A stretch of 64,000 nucleotides of DNA from Anaerolineae bacterium (lineage in GTDB: Bacteria; Chloroflexota; Anaerolineae; Aggregatilineales; Aggregatilineaceae), in the NCBI GenBank assembly GCA_023382715.1, contig JAHDWP010000001.1:339471-403470 (forward strand), given 5' to 3'. How positions within the stretch are numbered: position 1 is the first letter of the stretch; each line of letters starts with the position of its first letter. The translations under genes and the position numbers were made by a program. Below are positions 2,292 through 33,788 of this stretch, piece by piece. The notes below the pieces were generated by a model that saw nothing but the letters and a program-made list of their open reading frames with translations, had not been told where the DNA came from and made no database searches.

Positions 2292-3239
2292 GTGGCCGAT
2301 CAGATTCGTACCGACGAGATAAACACAGTCAGCGGGAACGCCGATGCACGGTCAAAGCGGCGCCCCGAATGGATCAAGGTCCGCGCGCCGAGCGGCGAGA
2401 CCTACGAGATGGTGCGCGGCCTGATGCGCAGCAAGCAACTGCACACCGTCTGCGAAGAGGCGATGTGCCCCAACCTCGGCGAGTGCTGGGGCGCTGGGAC
2501 GGCGACATTCCTCATGCTGGGCGACACGTGCACGCGCTCGTGCCGCTTCTGCGACATCAAGACCGGAAGGCCTGCCCCTCTGGACTGGCAGGAGCCTAAT
2601 CGGATCGCGCAGTCGGTGAAAGCCATGAATCTGCGTCACGTGGTCATCACCAGCGTCAACCGCGACGAGCGGCCCGATGGCGGCGCGCCGATCTTCGCCA
2701 TGGTCATCCGGCGCATTCGCCAGGTGCAGCCGGGGTGCAGCATCGAAGTGCTCATCCCGGACTTCAAGGGCAATCGTGACGCGCTGAAGATCGTCATGGA
2801 CGCCCAGCCGGAGATTCTCAACCACAATGTCGAGACGGTCCCGCGCCTGTTCCGCCAGGTTCAGCCGCAGGATCACTACGAGTGGGCCGAAGCAACGCTG
2901 CGCAACGCCAAAGCGCTGGACCCGCTGGCGCTGACCAAGAGCGGCATCATGGTGGGGCTGGGCGAGACGTTCGACGAAGTCGTAGCCGTGCTGGAAGACC
3001 TGGCCTCGTGGGGCGTGGACATCCTGACTATCGGGCAGTACCTCCAGCCCAGCAAGAAGCACATGCCCATTGACCGCTATTACCGCCCGGAGGAATTCGC
3101 CGAGCTGAAGCGTATCGGGCTGGAACTGGGCTTCAAGTGGGTCGAGTCCGGCCCGCTGGTGCGCAGCAGCTACCACGCCGAGCAGCAGGTGCGTCAGCTT
3201 TCGCAGCGCTACCAGTTCCACTTGCGCGGCGAGAGTTAG
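2292..3239 (+). CDS. lipA: Lipoyl synthase
   Basis: A radical SAM enzyme that inserts two sulfur atoms into the octanoyl group on lipoyl-dependent proteins, completing lipoate cofactor synthesis. The 315-residue protein has the auxiliary [4Fe-4S] cluster motif at Cys54, Cys59 and Cys65, and the radical SAM motif CTRSCRFC at Cys80, Cys84 and Cys87. The C-terminal RSSY signature supplies the unusual serine ligand of the auxiliary cluster. Length and motifs match the family. The start is GTG at 2292, giving the N-terminus [10 protein letters not shown]. lipB and the lipoylated enzymes are not nearby; a strong terminator follows at 3265-3291, so it is probably monocistronic. Confidence 0.97.
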
Positions 3240-3322: not shown

Positions 3323-4522
3323 TTACGTCTCGATAATTTTGTCGTCAATAAGCTGCTGCTGCACGCGCTGCCCGCGTGGATCGAAAGCGAAGTACGGCGC
3401 GTGAAGCTGAAATTCCATGTCGAGCATGGCGCGGCCCGCGCGGTTTTTCTCGACCGTGAAGACCACCCAATCCCGGTACTGGCGGGCCTGGTACGGGTTG
3501 AAGGCGACGTGCTCCTTTGACAGAATGTGATACTTGTTGTTCATGACGATGGCGATGTCGCACTCATAGTCAAGCGCTGAGCTGCCGCGCAGGTGGAACA
3601 GGTGCAGCCGGTTGGCCTTCAACCCTTCGCGGTCGGCGGCGACGATGGCCCACACCGGCACGCCCAGCGCCAGCGCCAGGTCCTTCAGCCCCTCGACCAC
3701 GATGGTCACTTTCTCTGCCTCGTCGGTGGCCCGCTCTGGGTGAATGGCTACCTTCTGCAGATAGTCCACGAAGACGGTCACGTTGCCGCCGGTCGCGTCG
3801 CACAGGCGGGCGGTCATCTCGCGGATGGCGCGCAGGGTGGTCACGGCGGGGCTGGCCTTGACCAGGATGAGTCGGTCGGCGTAGCGATTGATGCGCGCCA
3901 GGGCCATGGCGGTTTTGGCGTTTTCGCGCAGGATGGTCTGCAACGAGCCGCCGCCATCGGCTCCGCCGCGCAGGGTGCTCTTGGCCCGCTCGGCGATGAT
4001 CGTGTCGTACAGGTCCTTGAGGCGCACCCCGTTCTTCAGATCAATCTCCGGCGGGTTGATGCTTTCCAGGCACAACAGCCGGTTCATCAGGTGAGTTTCG
4101 GTGTGCTCGTAGGAGAGAAAGAACGCGAACTGGCCGCTGCGCATGGCGATGTTGCGCGCGATCTGCAGCGTGCCGATAGTCTTGCCAATGCCCTGGGCAC
4201 CGCCCAGCAGCACCAGCTCAGTCTTGCGCAGGCCGCCGCCGATCATGCCGTCGAGCGGATCGAAGCCAGTTGGGAGCGGGACGTACTCGGTTAGGTCACC
4301 GCGCACGACCATGTCGTTGGCTTCGGACATCACCTGGGCCAGGGTGCGCGGCATGTGGGCTGTGCTGCGATTGCTGCGACCTCGCGCCGTCACGCGCGGC
4401 TGGCGCGGCGCGCCGCCGGACACCCCCTCTCCTTCGGCTCCGCGCTGCTGAGCCGGATCCTGCGGGCGCGGGCTGGTGCTGGGTCGATCTGCCATATCAT
4501 CGTGGAAACGCCGTGTGGACAT
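3323..4522 (-). CDS. DnaB-like helicase C-terminal domain protein
   Basis: A 399-residue RecA-fold ATPase resembling the C-terminal half of replicative helicase DnaB. Visible motifs are Walker A GGAQGIGKT, Walker B VFVDYLQ, and a late segment reading RGSSALDYECDIAIVM followed by VEKNRAG, matching the end of the DnaB core. The N-terminal helical domain of DnaB that contacts primase is absent; a basic, low-complexity stretch of about 70 residues takes its place. It is therefore more likely an accessory helicase or RadA-like ATPase than the main replicative helicase. The start at 4522 was preferred because GAGGGG lies upstream; an in-frame start at 4591 has no ribosome site. It is divergent from the rplU operon. 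Confidence 0.75.
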   Translation of the reverse strand: MSTRRFHDDMADRPSTSPRPQDPAQQRGAEGEGVSGGAPRQPRVTARGRSNRSTAHMPRTLAQVMSEANDMVVRGDLTEYVPLPTGFDPLDGMIGGGLRKTELVLLGGAQGIGKTIGTLQIARNIAMRSGQFAFFLSYEHTETHLMNRLLCLESINPPEIDLKNGVRLKDLYDTIIAERAKSTLRGGADGGGSLQTILRENAKTAMALARINRYADRLILVKASPAVTTLRAIREMTARLCDATGGNVTVFVDYLQKVAIHPERATDEAEKVTIVVEGLKDLALALGVPVWAIVAADREGLKANRLHLFHLRGSSALDYECDIAIVMNNKYHILSKEHVAFNPYQARQYRDWVVFTVEKNRAGRAMLDMEFQLHAPYFAFDPRGQRVQQQLIDDKIIET

Positions 4523-4623
4523 ATCCCGTTCTTCCCCTCTTGGATCTCTCCAGGCTGCACTGATTGTACTGCCGGGCGCGGTTCTGCGCAATCCGCCTGA
4601 CGGGGTTCTCCCCTGATCCAGGA

Positions 4624-4652
4624 TTGACGGGGCTTCCCCCCGCCGCTATAAT
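4624..4652 (+). promoter_or_regulatory. Sigma-70-type promoter of the rplU operon
   Basis: TTGACG at 4624-4629, a 17-bp spacer and a perfect TATAAT at 4647-4652. Transcription should start near 4660, leaving a leader of about 115 nt before rplU. The leader contains short GC stems (for example GGCAG/CTGCC near 4686-4700) that could be an autoregulatory L21 leader, but I recognise no known leader consensus. Confidence 0.85.
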
Positions 4653-4773
4653 AGCGCGTCGGCGTTCTGGCCACTTCCAGGACGTGGGCAGTAAGCTGCC
4701 AATTTTCCCCGCTGGGGCGATCAGCAACGATTTGCTGCCAGCGGCGGCAAAGCGAAGATTGGAGACTCAAACC

Positions 4774-5091
4774 ATGTACGCGATTGTTCGAACGGGCGGG
4801 AGCCAACACCGCGCCGAGCCAGGGCTGGTCATTGATGTCGAGCGACTTCCGCACGAGGAAGGGGCCGAGATCGAGCTGACCGACGTCCTGTTGGTCGTGC
4901 CCGATGGCGGCGCGCCGCTGATCGGTCAGCCCCTGGTGGACGGGGCTGCGGTCAAGGCGACGGTCGTCAAGCAGGGGCGCGACAAGAAGATCTTTGTGTG
5001 GAAGTACAGCCCCAAGAAGCGGTTTCGCCGGCGCCGTGGCCACCGCCAGTACTACACGCGGCTGCGTATTGACAGCATCACCGGCGTATAG
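4774..5091 (+). CDS. rplU: 50S ribosomal protein L21
   Basis: A 105-residue ribosomal protein that binds 23S rRNA. It starts [13 protein letters not shown] and ends in the basic [21 protein letters not shown] region typical of bL21 (quoted here as a descriptive segment). The ATG at 4774 is preceded by GGAG at 4761-4764. It is the first gene of the bL21-bL27-bL31 cluster, a common bacterial arrangement for the first two genes; rpmA begins 27 bp downstream. Confidence 0.97.
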
Positions 5092-5118
5092 CAGCGAGTA
5101 TTTGAGGAGAGCGGACTC

Positions 5119-5403
5119 ATGGCACACAAAAAGGGTGGCGGCTCCACTCGCAATGGCCGCGATAGCAACAGCAAGCGCCTGGGCGTGAAGCGGTTTGGCG
5201 GCGAATACGTGATCCCCGGCAACATCATTGTCCGTCAGCGTGGCACCAAGTTCCACCCTGGCGCGAACGTGGGCATAGGGCGCGATCACACCATCTTTGC
5301 CACTGCCGAAGGGTATGTGGTCTTCGAGACCTTCGCGCGGGGCCGCAAGCGGATCAGTGTGCTGCCGGAACAGCCGGCGGCCAGCGCGGCCCAGCAGGCT
5401 TAG
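5119..5403 (+). CDS. rpmA: 50S ribosomal protein L27
   Basis: A 94-residue protein whose N-terminus [20 protein letters not shown] reaches toward the peptidyl-transferase centre. There is no Firmicutes-style cleavable N-terminal extension. The core segment [17 protein letters not shown] matches the family. The C-terminus carries a short Ala-rich tail. GAGGAG lies just upstream of the ATG. It is co-transcribed with rplU. Confidence 0.97.
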
Positions 5404-5497
5404 CCATTACTGCGGCGAGATAGACGTCAATCGTGAGGATACCGCCACGCATCCCCCTGTCACCAGGGAGCCGTGGCCGGAAAGGTTGAGAACACAC

Positions 5498-5965
5498 ATG
5501 CGTGAGAAAATTCATCCCCAGTGGTACCCGGAAGCGCGCGTTATCTGCGCCTGCGGCAATACCTGGACTGTGGGATCGACCGTCCCGGAAATCCGGACCG
5601 ATGTCTGCTCGGCCTGCCACCCCTTCTACACGGGCGAGCAGCGCATTGTGGACACCGAGGGCCAGGTTGATCGCTTCGTGAAGCGCCTGCTTGAGCGCGA
5701 TCGCAAGCTGGCCGAAGATGCGGCCCGTGAGCAAGAGCGCACCTCGCCCGAAGTGCCTATCGTGGACCTGGGCCTGGATAAGCGCTACGCCAACATCTTC
5801 ATCGAGGACGGCATTGAGGTCGTTGGCGACCTGTTGGCCCGCTGGAACGAAGGCGGCGACGCGGCAATCCTGGCCATCTCCGGCATCGGGCGCAAGGTGC
5901 TGGCCGATACCAAGAAACTGCTGCGCGCGCGCGGCTACGAGATTCCGGGGCAGACCGCGGAGTAG
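5498..5965 (+). CDS. rpmE: Ribosomal protein L31 fused to an RNA polymerase alpha-CTD-like helix-hairpin-helix domain
   Basis: A 155-residue protein. Residues 1-65 are bL31 of the zinc-binding type: [11 protein letters not shown], then CACGN and [10 protein letters not shown] supplying the Cys ligands. Residues about 66-90 are a charged linker. Residues about 90-150 read like the C-terminal domain of RpoA, with the pattern [18 protein letters not shown], then [21 protein letters not shown]. Typical bL31 is about 70 residues, so the second half is a fused domain. The ATG at 5498 was chosen because it opens the L31 domain; an upstream in-frame start at 5297 would overlap rpmA. It ends the rplU-rpmA unit, 94 bp after rpmA. 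Confidence 0.93.
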
Positions 5966-5990
5966 CTACCAGCACTGTGAGTTATCAGGC

Positions 5991-6024
5991 AAGGGCAGGT
6001 TCAGTCACAGAAACCTGCCCTTTT
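5991..6024 (+). terminator. Rho-independent terminator after rpmE
   Basis: An 11-bp perfect stem (5991-6001 with 6012-6022), a 10-nt loop and a T run. It lies 25 bp after the rpmE stop and separates the ribosomal protein operon from tdk. Confidence 0.85.
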
Positions 6025-6092
6025 GCTTAAGACCGGGCGAACGCTCGGCCAGGACGCTCAGCAGGGTCAAGACTGAAATTTGCGAGGGAGCG

Positions 6093-6674
6093 ATGAAACA
6101 TCACGGCGGGCGAGTCGAGGTTATCTGTGGCAGTATGTTCAGCGGCAAGACCGAAGAGCTGATCCGGCGCGTGCGCCGCGCCACTATAGCCAGACAGACC
6201 GTGCAGGTCTTCAAGCCGGCCATCGATTCCCGCCATGCACTTCAGCGCGTCACTTCGCACAACGGCCAGGACTTCGAGGCCATTCCAGTTAACGAAGCGC
6301 GCGCCATCCTCGACCAGTTGCAGCCGGGCACGACCGTCGTTGCCATTGACGAGGCGCAGTTCTTCGACGCGGCCATCGTCGGCGTGGTGGATCAGCTTGC
6401 CGCGCGCGGTATTCGGGTCATCCTGGCCGGGTTGGACACGGACTTTCGCGGCGAGCCGTTTGGGGCGATGCCAGACCTGCTCTGCCGCGCTGATGATGTG
6501 GTCAAGCTGCACGCGATCTGCATGGTCTGCGGCGAGGAAGCGGCGCGCACTCAGCGCCTGGTCAACGGCCAGCCAGCCAATTATCATGATCCGGTGATCA
6601 TGGTCGGCGCTGCCGAAGCGTATGAAGCCCGCTGCCGCGAGCATCACAGCGTCCCCGGACGGGAACTCGCCTAG
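6093..6674 (+). CDS. tdk: Thymidine kinase
   Basis: A 193-residue type II thymidine kinase that phosphorylates thymidine with ATP for nucleotide salvage. The P-loop GSMFSGKT is at residues 13-20. A DEAQFF motif gives the Walker B region, and a zinc site is formed by CMVCG and a late CREHH. The lasso region and the C-terminal substrate loop fit the family. The ATG at 6093 is preceded by GAGGGAG at 6084-6090; longer in-frame starts run back into rpmE and are rejected. Confidence 0.95.
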
Positions 6675-26855: not shown

Positions 26856-27860
26856 TCAGAACAGGCGCGTGATCTCGTCCACCAGGGGGCGCTCCAGCGC
26901 GCCGCGCGCCACATCGTATACGCCAGCCGGCCCGGCGATCATGTGCCCCAGGTGATAGACAGGGATGCCCGCCCTCGCGTATGCATCCCGCATAGCGGGC
27001 AGGTGCGTGGGGTCAACCGTGAGCAGCAGCGCGCCGGAAGCAATAGCGCGCGCCGGGTCTAATCCGAAGAAGCGGCACAGCGCCGCCGCCTCTGGCAACC
27101 AGGGCTGGATCTCGCCATAGAGCGACACCTGCACGCCACACTGGCTGGCTTCAGCCAGCTCCCACAGCGCCGTCACGACTCCACCCTCAGTCGGGTCGTG
27201 CATGCTGGTCACGCCGTCCACGCTCATCGCCACCGCCGCATCGCGAACAATGCTGATGCCGGGCACATGCAGGAACGCGGCAGCCCGGTCGAGCAGCTCT
27301 TCCGGGAAGTGGCCCGCCAGTTCGTCGCGCTTCTCGCGGGCGATGATGGCCGCAGCCTCGACCGGCGCACCTTTGCTGAGCAGAATCGCATCGCCGGGCC
27401 GTGCCCCGCCTGTGCGCACCGTTCGCTCCGGGGAGACTTCTCCCAACATGCAGCCCACCACGATCGGACGGTTGAGGCCGTAGGTCACCTCGCTGTGCCC
27501 GCCGGCAACCGTCACGCCAAGATCGCGGCACGCCGCCCCAATCTGCGCAAAGATTGTCTGCGCCAGGTCCGCCGTTGCGCTTTCTTCCGGGAGCAGGACA
27601 GTCGCCAGGAACCACAGCGGCGTGGCCCCTATTGTGGCGATGTCGTTGGCGCACACCTGCACCGCGTACCAGCCGATCTCGTCAGTGGCAAAAGTGATCG
27701 GGTCGGTCTTGGCGACCAGGTGGCGATCCGGCAGCGCGATCACTGCCGCGTCTTCGCCGATCTGCGGCCCCAGCACCAGGCGTGGATGGGCTGTCGGCAA
27801 CCCGGTCAGCAGGTCGGCCAGTAGATCGTGAGGAATTTTGCCCACCGGCAGCCGGGTCAT
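26856..27860 (-). CDS. AIR synthase-related (HypE/ThiL/SelD superfamily) protein
   Basis: A 334-residue protein of the PurM-like ATP-binding fold. Evidence includes an N-terminal GPQIGEDAAVIALPD, a DEIGWYAVQVCANDIATIGATP segment (the dimer-interface signature), a GGHSEVTYG motif and a late MHDPTEGGVVTALWELAEAS. It resembles HypE, which activates a carbamoyl group for hydrogenase maturation, but the C-terminal Cys tail of HypE is missing (it ends DEITRLF). It is therefore not a HypE by sequence. Its place next to fdhD suggests a role in formate dehydrogenase or thio-cofactor maturation, as an inference. A structured leader with an upstream ORF precedes the ATG at 27860. Confidence 0.85.
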   Translation of the reverse strand: MTRLPVGKIPHDLLADLLTGLPTAHPRLVLGPQIGEDAAVIALPDRHLVAKTDPITFATDEIGWYAVQVCANDIATIGATPLWFLATVLLPEESATADLAQTIFAQIGAACRDLGVTVAGGHSEVTYGLNRPIVVGCMLGEVSPERTVRTGGARPGDAILLSKGAPVEAAAIIAREKRDELAGHFPEELLDRAAAFLHVPGISIVRDAAVAMSVDGVTSMHDPTEGGVVTALWELAEASQCGVQVSLYGEIQPWLPEAAALCRFFGLDPARAIASGALLLTVDPTHLPAMRDAYARAGIPVYHLGHMIAGPAGVYDVARGALERPLVDEITRLF

Positions 27861-27884
27861 GGCTCACTCTCTGCCTCATCTTCC

Positions 27885-27921
27885 CCACAAAAGGCAGGTC
27901 CCCGAAGCAGCTTCGGGGACC
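27885..27921 (-). terminator. Terminator-like hairpin before the AIR-synthase-like gene
   Basis: A perfect 11-bp GC-rich stem (27897-27907 with 27911-27921) and 3-nt loop, followed on the minus strand by TGCCTTTTG. The T run is short and displaced, so it could be an attenuator or a pausing hairpin rather than a full terminator. Confidence 0.5.
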
Positions 27922-27929
27922 CCGGTCTT

Positions 27930-27980
27930 GAGCGCTGTGACACCGGCTACTTCAACCGAAGGAGGGGTGTCACAGCGCTC
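27930..27980 (-). promoter_or_regulatory. Long hairpin overlapping the leader ORF
   Basis: Perfect 15-bp arms at 27930-27944 and 27966-27980 enclose a 21-nt loop that can itself form CTTC-GGTT-GAAG on the minus-strand RNA. The 3' half of the leader ORF is inside it. Confidence 0.75.
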
Positions 27981-28003
27981 CACTGCATACTACCATCGTG
28001 CAT
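27947..28003 (-). CDS. Possible 18-residue leader peptide ORF
   Basis: ATG at 28003 follows a perfect AGGAGG with 8-nt spacing (28012-28017). The peptide reads MHDGSMQWSAVTPLLRLK and stops at TAG, 27947-27949, inside the loop of the large hairpin. A ribosome on this ORF would cover the 5' arm of the hairpin, as in translation-dependent attenuation. There is no run of a single regulatory amino acid. Translation is inferred from the ribosome site alone. Confidence 0.5.
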   Translation of the reverse strand: MHDGSMQWSAVTPLLRLK

Positions 28004-28083
28004 GGACACCACCTCCTTCTGTTTGAGATGGCATTTCGGCGGCAAGCCCTGTGCCAGGCAGCAGGACCGTACCGTGTAGCTTG

Positions 28084-28113
28084 ATTATCGCACAGGCAGC
28101 TACGCCGTGTCAA
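28084..28113 (-). promoter_or_regulatory. Promoter of the structured leader
   Basis: On the minus strand: a perfect TTGACA (28108-28113), an 18-bp spacer and GATAAT (28084-28089). Transcription should begin near 28075, giving a leader of about 215 nt before the ATG at 27860. Confidence 0.75.
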
Positions 28114-28156
28114 ACAAAGGCCGGAGCCAAACGGCTCAGCCGGGACGCGCGCAGTC

Positions 28157-29002
28157 TCACCGCTCGTCCTGGCCGACCAGCCCCAGCCGCTCCGGGCAGG
28201 TATAGACGCGCATGTTGCCCAGGCGCAGGTATCCCACCACGCAGATATTCCAGACCGCAGCCATCTGCACGGAGATGCTCGTCGGGGCCGTCCGGCTGGC
28301 GACCAGCGGCACGCCCATCTGCCGCGCTTTGAGCAGCATTTCCGAGCTGATGCGCCCGCTGGTCAGCAGCATCCGGTCGCGCGGATCGATCCCGGCCAGC
28401 AGCGCCTTGCCCATCAGCTTGTCAATCGTGTTGTGCCGTCCCACGTCTTCCGCCGTGAACAGCACCGAGTTCTCGTCCGCCAGGACGGATGTGTGAATGC
28501 CGCGCACCTGCCGGTACAGCCGCGCCGTGGCGTTGAGATCGCGCATCCGGTCGTGGAGCGCCTGCGGTGTTGTCGCGAACGCTGTCTCCAGCGGGGGATG
28601 ATCGTCGGTGATGGACTGGAAGGTGATCCCGCTGCCACAGCCAGAGGTCAGCGTGAGGCGGCGCGGCGCAGCGAAGTCGTCCGTGCGCAGGAAAATATCC
28701 ACCGTCGTCCTGCTCACGTTGCACTGCACCAGCCCCACGTCGGCATCGGACTGGATCACCCCCTCATTGAACAGAAAGCCCAGCGCCAGCGCCTCCTGTT
28801 CCACCGGGCTGCACATGAGCGTCGCCAGCTCGCGCCCGTTGACGTACAGCCCCAGGTGAATCTCCTGCGGCACGCCGCCGGCAACCAGCTCGGCGCCCTC
28901 GCCGGACACAGACCAGTAACTCGCCGGCAGCGCCCCCGGCGCGAAGATGGCTTCAATAGGGGAAAGGACCGTCACCAGGTATCTCCATACTGGCGCAGGC
29001 AT
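28157..29002 (-). CDS. fdhD: Formate dehydrogenase accessory sulfurtransferase FdhD
   Basis: A 281-residue protein that passes sulfur to the molybdenum/tungsten bis-MGD cofactor so that formate dehydrogenase becomes active. Family segments include ELATLMCSPVEQEALALGFLFNEG, then FTAEDVGRHNTIDKLMG and LTSGRISSEMLLKA, shown as pieces. The loop that carries CxxC in E. coli FdhD here reads TSGCGSG, with only one cysteine. The ATG at 29002 has no ribosome site; a GTG at 28975 has GGAG 7 nt upstream and may be the true start. It is the third gene of the minus-strand formate dehydrogenase cluster, after the diaphorase and ferredoxin-subunit genes. Confidence 0.93.
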   Translation of the reverse strand: MPAPVWRYLVTVLSPIEAIFAPGALPASYWSVSGEGAELVAGGVPQEIHLGLYVNGRELATLMCSPVEQEALALGFLFNEGVIQSDADVGLVQCNVSRTTVDIFLRTDDFAAPRRLTLTSGCGSGITFQSITDDHPPLETAFATTPQALHDRMRDLNATARLYRQVRGIHTSVLADENSVLFTAEDVGRHNTIDKLMGKALLAGIDPRDRMLLTSGRISSEMLLKARQMGVPLVASRTAPTSISVQMAAVWNICVVGYLRLGNMRVYTCPERLGLVGQDER

Positions 29003-31497: not shown

Positions 31498-31619
31498 TGC
31501 GGAGCCTTTCTGGAACAGCGGGCCTTCAAGAGTCGGCTGTGCGCCCGTAAGTAGACTATAATCAACGCAATAATGCAAACAGATGCCTGATAAATCAAGG
31601 TCTACGGGAGTTGATCACG
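31498..31619. promoter_or_regulatory. Divergent promoter region of the formate dehydrogenase cluster
   Basis: For the plus strand, a perfect TATAAT lies at 31557-31562, with a weak TCGGCT 18 bp upstream. For the minus strand, TTGATT (31593-31598), a 17-bp spacer and CATTAT (31570-31575) are present. The two -10 boxes are 7 bp apart, so transcription in the two directions probably competes or is co-regulated. Confidence 0.55.
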
Positions 31620-33788
31620 ATGCAACCTGCCGCACCTCTTGCACCCGATCGCGTCGTCCGCACCACCTGCCCCTATTGCGGCGTGGGCTGCCAGATGGAA
31701 TTATATCTCAAAGACGGCGTCATCTACCGAGTCGGCGCGCCCTTCGACGCCGCGCCCAACTATGGCAAGCTGTGCGTCAAGGGGCGCTATGGCACAGACT
31801 TCACCATGCACCCCCGCCGGCTGACCACGCCCCTCATCCGGGCCGGCGCGCCCGGCGAGTTCCGCCCTGCCACCTGGGACGAAGCGCTAACCCTGGTCAG
31901 CGAGCAACTGGCGCGCATCGTCCGCGAGAGCGGCGGCGACAGCATCGCCACCTACGCCTCCGCCAAGGCCACCAACGAGGACAATTATGTCTTTCAGAAG
32001 TGGGTGCGCGCTGTGCTCAAGACCAACAACGTGGATCACTGCGCCCGGCTCTGCCATGCAGGCAGCGTCACCGGCCTGCAATTGGCCATCGGCTCCAGCG
32101 CCATGAGCAACAGCATCGCCGAGATGAAGGACCTGGACACGTTCATCATCACCGGCAGCAACACCAGCGAAACCCACCCGGTGATCAGCCTCTTCCTCAA
32201 GCGCGCCGTCCGCCAGAACGGTGCCCGGCTGATCGTCATTGATCCGCGCCAGATCGAGATGACCGAGTTCGCCACCTTGTGGCTGCGTCAGAGACCAGGC
32301 ACCGATGTGGCCGTCTTCCAGGCGATGGCCCACGTCATCGTAGCCGAAAAGCTGTATAACGAAACGTTCATCAACCAGCGCGCCGAAGGATTTGCCGAGT
32401 ACGCAGGCTCGCTGGCCGCGTTCACGCCCGAATGGGCAGAGGGCGTCAGCGGCGTCCCGGCGGACGACATCCGCGCTGCCGCGCGCCTGTACGCCGCCGC
32501 GCAAAGCGCCGCCATTTACTGGGGCATGGGCATCTCGCAGAGCACGCACGGCACCGATAACGCCCTCGCCCTGACCAACCTCGCCCTGCTGACCGGCCAC
32601 ATCGGCAGGCCAGGCACCGGTCTCAATCCACTGCGCGGCCAGAACAATGTGCAGGGCTGCTCGGACAGCGGCGGCCTGCCCAACGTCTTCACCGCCTACC
32701 AGGGGGTGAACGACGACGCGATCCGCGCTCGCTTCGAGCGCGCCTGGCAGACGGCGCTCCCGTCGCATCCCGGCCTCACCGTGACCGAGATGGTGGACGG
32801 CGCGTTGCTGGGCAACGTGCGTGCGATGGTCGTCCTGGGCGAGAACCCGCTGATGAGCGAGCCGAACCTGGCCCACGCTCGCCATGCGCTGGAAGCGCTC
32901 GATTTCCTGGTCTGCATAGACATCTTCCCGAACGAGACCAGCGAGCACGCCCATGTGATCTTGCCAGCAGCCAGCTTCGCCGAGAAGGACGGCACCTTCA
33001 CCAACAGCGATCGGCGCGTGCAGCGCGTACGCCAGGCGCTGCCGCTCACCGGCGACTCGCGCCTGGACTGGCAGATCGTCTGTGATCTGGCCCGCCGCAT
33101 GGAGCAACTGCTCGGTGTGACCGGCAGCGCGGGCTTCGACTATCGCAGCGCCGGGGACATCTGGGAAGAGATGCGCCAGGTGACGCCCGACTTCTACGGC
33201 ATCACCTACGAGCGCCTGGAGCGCGAAGGGGGCGTGCATTGGCCATGCCCATCGCTCGATCACCCCGGCACGCCCATCCTCTTCGCCGACAGCTTTCCGC
33301 GTGGCAAGGGCAAGTTCTGGGCGCTCGACTTCGGCACAGAGAGCGAGTTGCCGGATGATGAGTACCCCTTCCACCTGACGACGGGCCGCGTGCTCTACCA
33401 CTGGCATGGTGGCACACTTTCCCGGCAGTCGCGGCTGGATGACATCTTCCCCGAAGCCGTGCTCGAAGTCCACCCCGACGACGCTGCCGCGCTCGATCTT
33501 GTCTCCGGCGACTGGGTTAAAGTCTCCTCGCGGCGGGGAAGCGTCACCTGCCGGGCGCTGGTCACCGGGCGCTCGCCCCAGGGGACCGTTTTCCTGCCAT
33601 TTCACTTCGCCGAGGCCGCGGCCAACAAGCTGACTCTCAATAAGATTGACCCGCGCGCCAAGATTCCTGACTTCAAGATGGCCGCGGTCGCGCTGCGCAA
33701 GACCGACCCGCCCGGCGACCGTCCGGGCGCGGATGAGGCACTGGCCGATCGCGGGGCGATCAAGGACCCACTCGAACACATCCACTGA
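31620..33788 (+). CDS. Formate dehydrogenase catalytic subunit (Mo/W-bis-MGD)
   Basis: A 722-residue molybdopterin oxidoreductase. The N-terminal [4Fe-4S] motif is CPYCGVGC...LCVKG. The metal-ligand segment is [13 protein letters not shown], with Cys in place of selenocysteine, which identifies formate dehydrogenase rather than nitrate reductase. The C-terminal domain ([18 protein letters not shown]) binds the cofactor. It lacks the N-terminal ferredoxin domains of larger FdhA/FdsA proteins; these are encoded separately in the divergent operon. The ATG at 31620 has GGGAG 9 nt upstream; TTG 31611 is less likely. It probably oxidises formate to CO2 and reduces NAD+ through the divergently encoded subunits. 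Confidence 0.95.

Follow-up and report, generated by a model that had tools for sequence, protein, structure and literature searches.

Structure of the locus

The window analysed in this study (the whole stretch of 64,000 nt) belongs to a contig of an Anaerolineae bacterium of the phylum Chloroflexota. Its minus strand carries a compact element, comprising a promoter, a short ORF and two hairpins, which is directly followed by a gene of the AIR-synthase superfamily. The features are as follows.

28084-28113, minus strand: sigma70-type promoter of the RNA gene, TTGACA-18-GATAAT (TTGACA 28113-28108, GATAAT 28089-28084)
28025-28032, minus strand: conserved 5'-UTR motif GCYAUCYC, in the window GCCATCTC; possible P1 partner of the Shine-Dalgarno (SD) sequence
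28005-28019, minus strand: strand A, extended SD GAAGGAGGTGGTGTC, the complement of the 16S 3' tail and of strand B
27947-28003, minus strand: 18-codon ORF MHDGSMQWSAVTPLLRLK, TAG stop at 27949-27947
27958-27971, minus strand: strand B, anti-SD GACACCCCTCCTTC within the ORF, whose partners are strand A (28005-28019) or, in part, strand C
27930-27980, minus strand: hairpin P3 (5' arm 27980-27966; 3' arm, i.e. strand C, 27944-27930)
27889-27922, minus strand: hairpin P4 and T run, predicted intrinsic terminator of the RNA
26856-27860, minus strand: AIR-synthase-superfamily gene (PF00586/PF02769; 334 aa; start at 27860), directly 3' of the element

An earlier note on this DNA had described the promoter, the SD, the ORF and the hairpins, and direct reading of the minus strand found all of them in place. 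A spacing of 8 nt separates the AGGAGG sequence from the ATG at 28003, the TAG stop lies in the loop of P3 (a perfect 15-bp hairpin), and the second hairpin, noted as one of 11 bp with a T run ahead of the gene, is the terminator-like P4 (11-12 bp, 27922-27896, with a CTTTT tail). The promoter is the sole promoter-like site in the region 27700-28400 (0.1 expected in shuffled sequences), and the predicted folding energy of the 218-nt leader is -102.9 kcal/mol, compared with -81.8±4.4 kcal/mol for dinucleotide shuffles (z -4.8). Such an arrangement goes beyond chance, since it recurs throughout the phylum and in relatives that share no more than 58-85% identity in the AIR-like protein.

Occurrence of the element in Chloroflexota

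The first relatives were gathered by way of the AIR-like gene. This search yielded 11 loci with an intact leader (that of the window included), one of them in a genome of another family. A covariance model built from the first ten leader loci detected the element in 206 of 396 genomes of the class; within the window's family it was present in 16 of 18, and two further families of the order gave strong matches. With a second model (87 rows) it was detected in 242 of 397 sampled class genomes, almost always as a single copy, and divergent copies were found in other Chloroflexota classes. An independent strict DNA pattern, run over 84,980 species, retrieved 52 loci, every one of which is titled Chloroflexota, Chloroflexi or a subgroup thereof; these named loci (L153-L204) might serve as the seed of a database family. 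One weak match within the phylum (L224) was judged to be a false positive and left out. A genomic repeat or mobile element was also considered and rejected, the window's genome containing one copy only.

None of the 4227 families of Rfam 15 matched the window at the gathering threshold, the lax threshold gave nothing better than E 1.1, and a scan of 16 relative loci produced no match at the element, which agrees with the first impression that no known riboswitch or leader-peptide family was recognizable here. Literature searches among open-licence papers likewise found no description of it. Chloroflexi-1 (RF01698), an RNA motif from a Chloroflexota genome (PMC2864571), resembles the element in being an RNA motif of this phylum, but in the Rfam scans it matched neither the window nor the Chloroflexus/Herpetosiphon-like loci. 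As judged by comparative sequence analysis, the element is a previously undescribed RNA gene that has been kept across a large and poorly studied phylum.

Several divergent loci have peculiarities of their own. In a Herpetosiphon-like genome (L214) a convergent 23S rRNA gene (3448-6094) has its 3' end some 350 nt away from the element (3001-3094); five sister contigs of this locus stop close by, perhaps at rRNA operons. In another class, the copies at two loci (L219 and L221, both near position 3001) have longer, cysteine-containing peptides (MDHSSCKACVPSS... and MDYRSCRACGPNN..., respectively) and a different hairpin layout.

A predicted three-strand switch around the Shine-Dalgarno sequence

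The comparative support is unusually strong for both the structural switch and the translated ORF. Double compensatory changes were observed at 12 of the 13 pairs of P3, with 96% of cells paired (104 rows). Strand B belongs to both the 5' arm and the loop of this hairpin. The diagnostic pair of the A:B duplex is A-U in 56 cases, G-C in 25 and G-U in three, with two mismatches, and the covariation score for A:B reaches 0.418, against 0.271 for shuffled and at most 0.23 for slid strands. Both states of this pair occur inside each of three families (f42, f52 and f58), and in 104 of 118 copies the native duplex is better than one with swapped partners. The covariation extends to all three strands, with the combinations A-U-A and G-C-G in A, B and C, i.e. 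the same base of B tracks both of its partners. The comparison thus shows A:B and B:C to be mutually exclusive pairings, which are predicted to form a three-strand switch around the SD. Tree-supported independent changes of the A:B pair are few because the tree of the element is poorly resolved, and a tree-based sign test on this pair is underpowered.

Fold predictions for the window copy give the same alternation. Before strand C has been made, the A:B form wins (-55.9 vs -41.1 kcal/mol), while at full length the P3 form is better by 12 kcal/mol (-95.1 vs -83.1 kcal/mol). The 16S 3' end had no match in the window's own assembly and was taken from another member of the family (G011). The family has a canonical 16S tail, GGCTGGATCACCTCCTT, with which strand A can pair over about ten bases.

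A further hairpin, P1, may mask the SD by pairing it with the upstream GCYAUCC motif. It is suggestive in the folds, with native pairing better than swapped in only 66 of 118 copies, and no covariation support for it was found among the 118 relatives. According to the predictions, SD accessibility increases by more than 0.3 at full length in only seven of 118 copies; the SD remains mostly paired in these folds because P1 takes over. Since P1 provides this cover and has no covariation behind it, the nature of the "on" state is uncertain.

The position of the stop codon is another constant of the element. Counted from the 5' arm of P3, the stop follows at 16.5±2.9 nt regardless of loop length, and loop length correlates with the distance from the stop to the 3' arm (0.91) and hardly with the 5' side (0.15), so that extra loop sequence sits after the stop. 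When read against typical ribosome footprints, this fixed spacing suggests a geometry in which a terminating ribosome would cover the anti-SD.

The short ORF and its peptide

In all 118 copies one frame behind the SD is open for 14-22 codons from an ATG or GTG, while the other two frames fit a length of 15-20 codons in only three and one of them. This pattern indicates that the short ORF is translated; the check proposed at the outset, i.e. covariation and ORF conservation in relatives, was thus passed strongly on both counts.

It is conceivable that the peptide itself is the product of the gene, and that A:B and P3 only tune the expression of an autoregulated micropeptide. The constancy of frame, start, stop and length in all copies fits this explanation, as does a peptide start that recurs in the class (M-D-x-S-S-x-K-x-S-A-V-A). 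Nevertheless, we consider it rather unlikely, for three reasons. The C-terminal half of the peptide differs completely between classes. The SAVASLL/SAVASPP portion is fixed by the P3/anti-SD strand. Finally, the conservation of the serine-rich start is of a nucleotide kind: SSxK is kept as NGT-NGT-A triplets in which AGT, CGT, TGT and GGT interchange, and serine is encoded by AGT in 185 of 258 cases (72%, compared with 9.4% in neighbouring genes) and by TCN in only 14 of 258. The triplet conservation and the AGT bias point to selection on the nucleotide sequence itself. Control codons for an amino acid were also considered and rejected, because the frequent AGT is swapped for CGT, TGT and GGT and no single amino acid is kept.

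A changing peptide within a constant architecture favours the state of the RNA over the peptide as the product. We think that selection acts on the process of translation and on the RNA state rather than on the peptide, and the element would then be an RNA that reports or responds to translation status.

Proposed mode of action

On balance, the element is probably a translated small RNA gene of Chloroflexota, free-standing and normally present in one copy, with a three-strand translation switch in its transcript. During transcription, strand A would pair first with B, which would mask the SD; as C emerges it would take B from A, leaving A free for a 30S subunit; in the full-length RNA the SD may nonetheless remain covered by P1, a weaker hairpin further upstream. 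A ribosome, once loaded, would translate past B and reach its stop in the P3 loop, where its body would cover the anti-SD and so prevent recapture of the SD. The RNA would thereby have two states, set by ribosome loading and termination.

A more specific proposal, which we put forward tentatively, is that of a phylum-wide housekeeping RNA measuring translation capacity. Such an RNA would be a mini-mRNA whose conformation reports initiation and termination, with 16S rRNA and the anti-SD copy inside the ORF competing for the extended SD, and it would act on other targets. If this is true, attenuator-like switches are not confined to leaders and can also be genes in their own right.

The RNA might also act in trans as an antisense molecule, whose exposed CCUCC-type loop binds the SD sequences of other mRNAs and for which translation of its own ORF is the off-switch. 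In nearly all copies the anti-SD is indeed placed in the loop of the P3 form, and an independent gene whose promoter and terminator signals are strong would suit this role. We regard it as a fairly improbable explanation, in view of the A:B covariation, which shows strand B to be matched to its own SD beyond what a generic SD would require.

Relationship to the downstream gene

The signals of an independent transcription unit are kept along with the element. A promoter matching at least 10 of 12 positions is present at the expected place in 88 of 100 relatives (1.5% of shuffled upstream regions), and the terminator hairpin has a stem of at least 9 bp in 116 of 118, with a run of three or more T in 94. 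Of 100 loci, 18 have the AIR-like gene behind the element and 82 do not; in at least 32 of the 100 the downstream gene is convergent. Convergent neighbours include HNH-type (15), phosphofructokinase-type (9) and rhodanese-type (8) genes, the names being our reading of the sequences. On its sequence signals, the element is therefore best regarded as a translated small RNA gene that stands alone, usually occurs once per genome and has its own promoter and terminator.

These data bear directly on the reading of the earlier note, according to which the element is a transcription attenuator, or leader, of the AIR-synthase-like gene. The 18 AIR-adjacent loci, which come from several families, do speak for it: the gene is always on the same strand, with its ATG 48-155 nt after P3, and mostly there is no space for a separate promoter between terminator and gene. 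Moreover, wherever genomes of the window's order contain both element and gene (12 genomes), the two are adjacent. Outside the order, however, 31 of 70 element-bearing genomes have no close AIR relative, and among the other 39 the gene is located elsewhere in about 31 and adjacent in about eight. No antiterminator invading P4 was seen either; P4 forms independently in the predicted folds of both states, and no partner strand for it was noticed. A leader of this gene is thus an unlikely account of the element, and a leader specific to AIR or fdhD was rejected as a general explanation, the downstream gene being mostly unrelated or on the opposite strand. What stands of the suggested translation-sensitive attenuator is a structured RNA linked to translation, and what does not is general attenuation of the AIR-like gene. 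The suggested link to cofactor or formate dehydrogenase maturation is not supported as a general explanation, fdhD being a neighbour at only six of 100 loci, each of which belongs to the family of the window. The alternative that the earlier note held equally possible, an independent short RNA (about 190 nt), is favoured by the element's own promoter and terminator signals and by the non-conserved downstream gene. Where the AIR-like gene directly follows the terminator, it is probably also fed by read-through, and a leader role is plausible there as a secondary use.

That the element is non-functional, being either a mobile repeat or an intergenic spacer in which hairpins and an ORF arose by chance, is hardly credible in the face of deep conservation with covariation, usually at one copy per genome.

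Comparison with known systems

Leader-peptide attenuators of the erm, cat and trp type contain a short ORF overlapping mutually exclusive hairpins, and they control a fixed gene in cis. Upstream ORFs in the leaders of Staphylococcus aureus rbf (PMC13009471) and Escherichia coli topAI-yjhQ (PMC12121999) were used as further comparison systems. The element shares with all of them a short ORF with a strong SD, mutually exclusive hairpins and a state that would depend on the ribosome. It departs from them in two respects: (i) they control a fixed gene in cis, whereas the element ends at its own terminator and its downstream gene is not conserved, and (ii) the masked SD is that of the short ORF itself. 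Unlike leader-peptide attenuators, it also lacks a series of control codons specific to a single amino acid. A short ORF over exclusive structures is present (as seen from the triple covariation and frame conservation), while the AIR-like gene follows on the same strand at only the 18 of 100 loci mentioned above. Having neither a fixed target gene nor control codons, the element falls outside the definition of a leader-peptide attenuator.

Another group to be considered is that of the dual-function or peptide-coding small RNAs, such as SgrS, RNAIII and SR1. We know of no dual-function small RNA with a switch formed by an SD, an anti-SD inside the ORF and a 3' arm, nor of one in which a stop codon is held at a fixed distance in a hairpin loop. 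Like the RNAs of this group (surveyed in PMC5521070), the element is a small independent unit which, by its sequence signals, has its own promoter, its own terminator and a tiny ORF, the latter predicted to be translated in all 118 copies.

Genes adjoining the element in the window

The AIR-like protein (26856-27860, minus strand) scores well below the curated NCBIfam cut-offs for HypE (87.6 vs 251.6), SelD (80 vs 125) and ThiL (74.9 vs 184), yet it is kept across the order and the class; it is a member of the superfamily without assignment to any of these families. In two genomes of another family a 6S RNA is located directly behind the AIR-like gene (L016, 1268-1446; L027, 1254-1429). On the plus strand of the window, a formate dehydrogenase alpha subunit is encoded at 31611-33788, with nuoE/F-type and nuoG-type subunits and fdhD as neighbours; the cysteine in its ARLCHAG motif presumably occupies the Sec/Cys ligand position.
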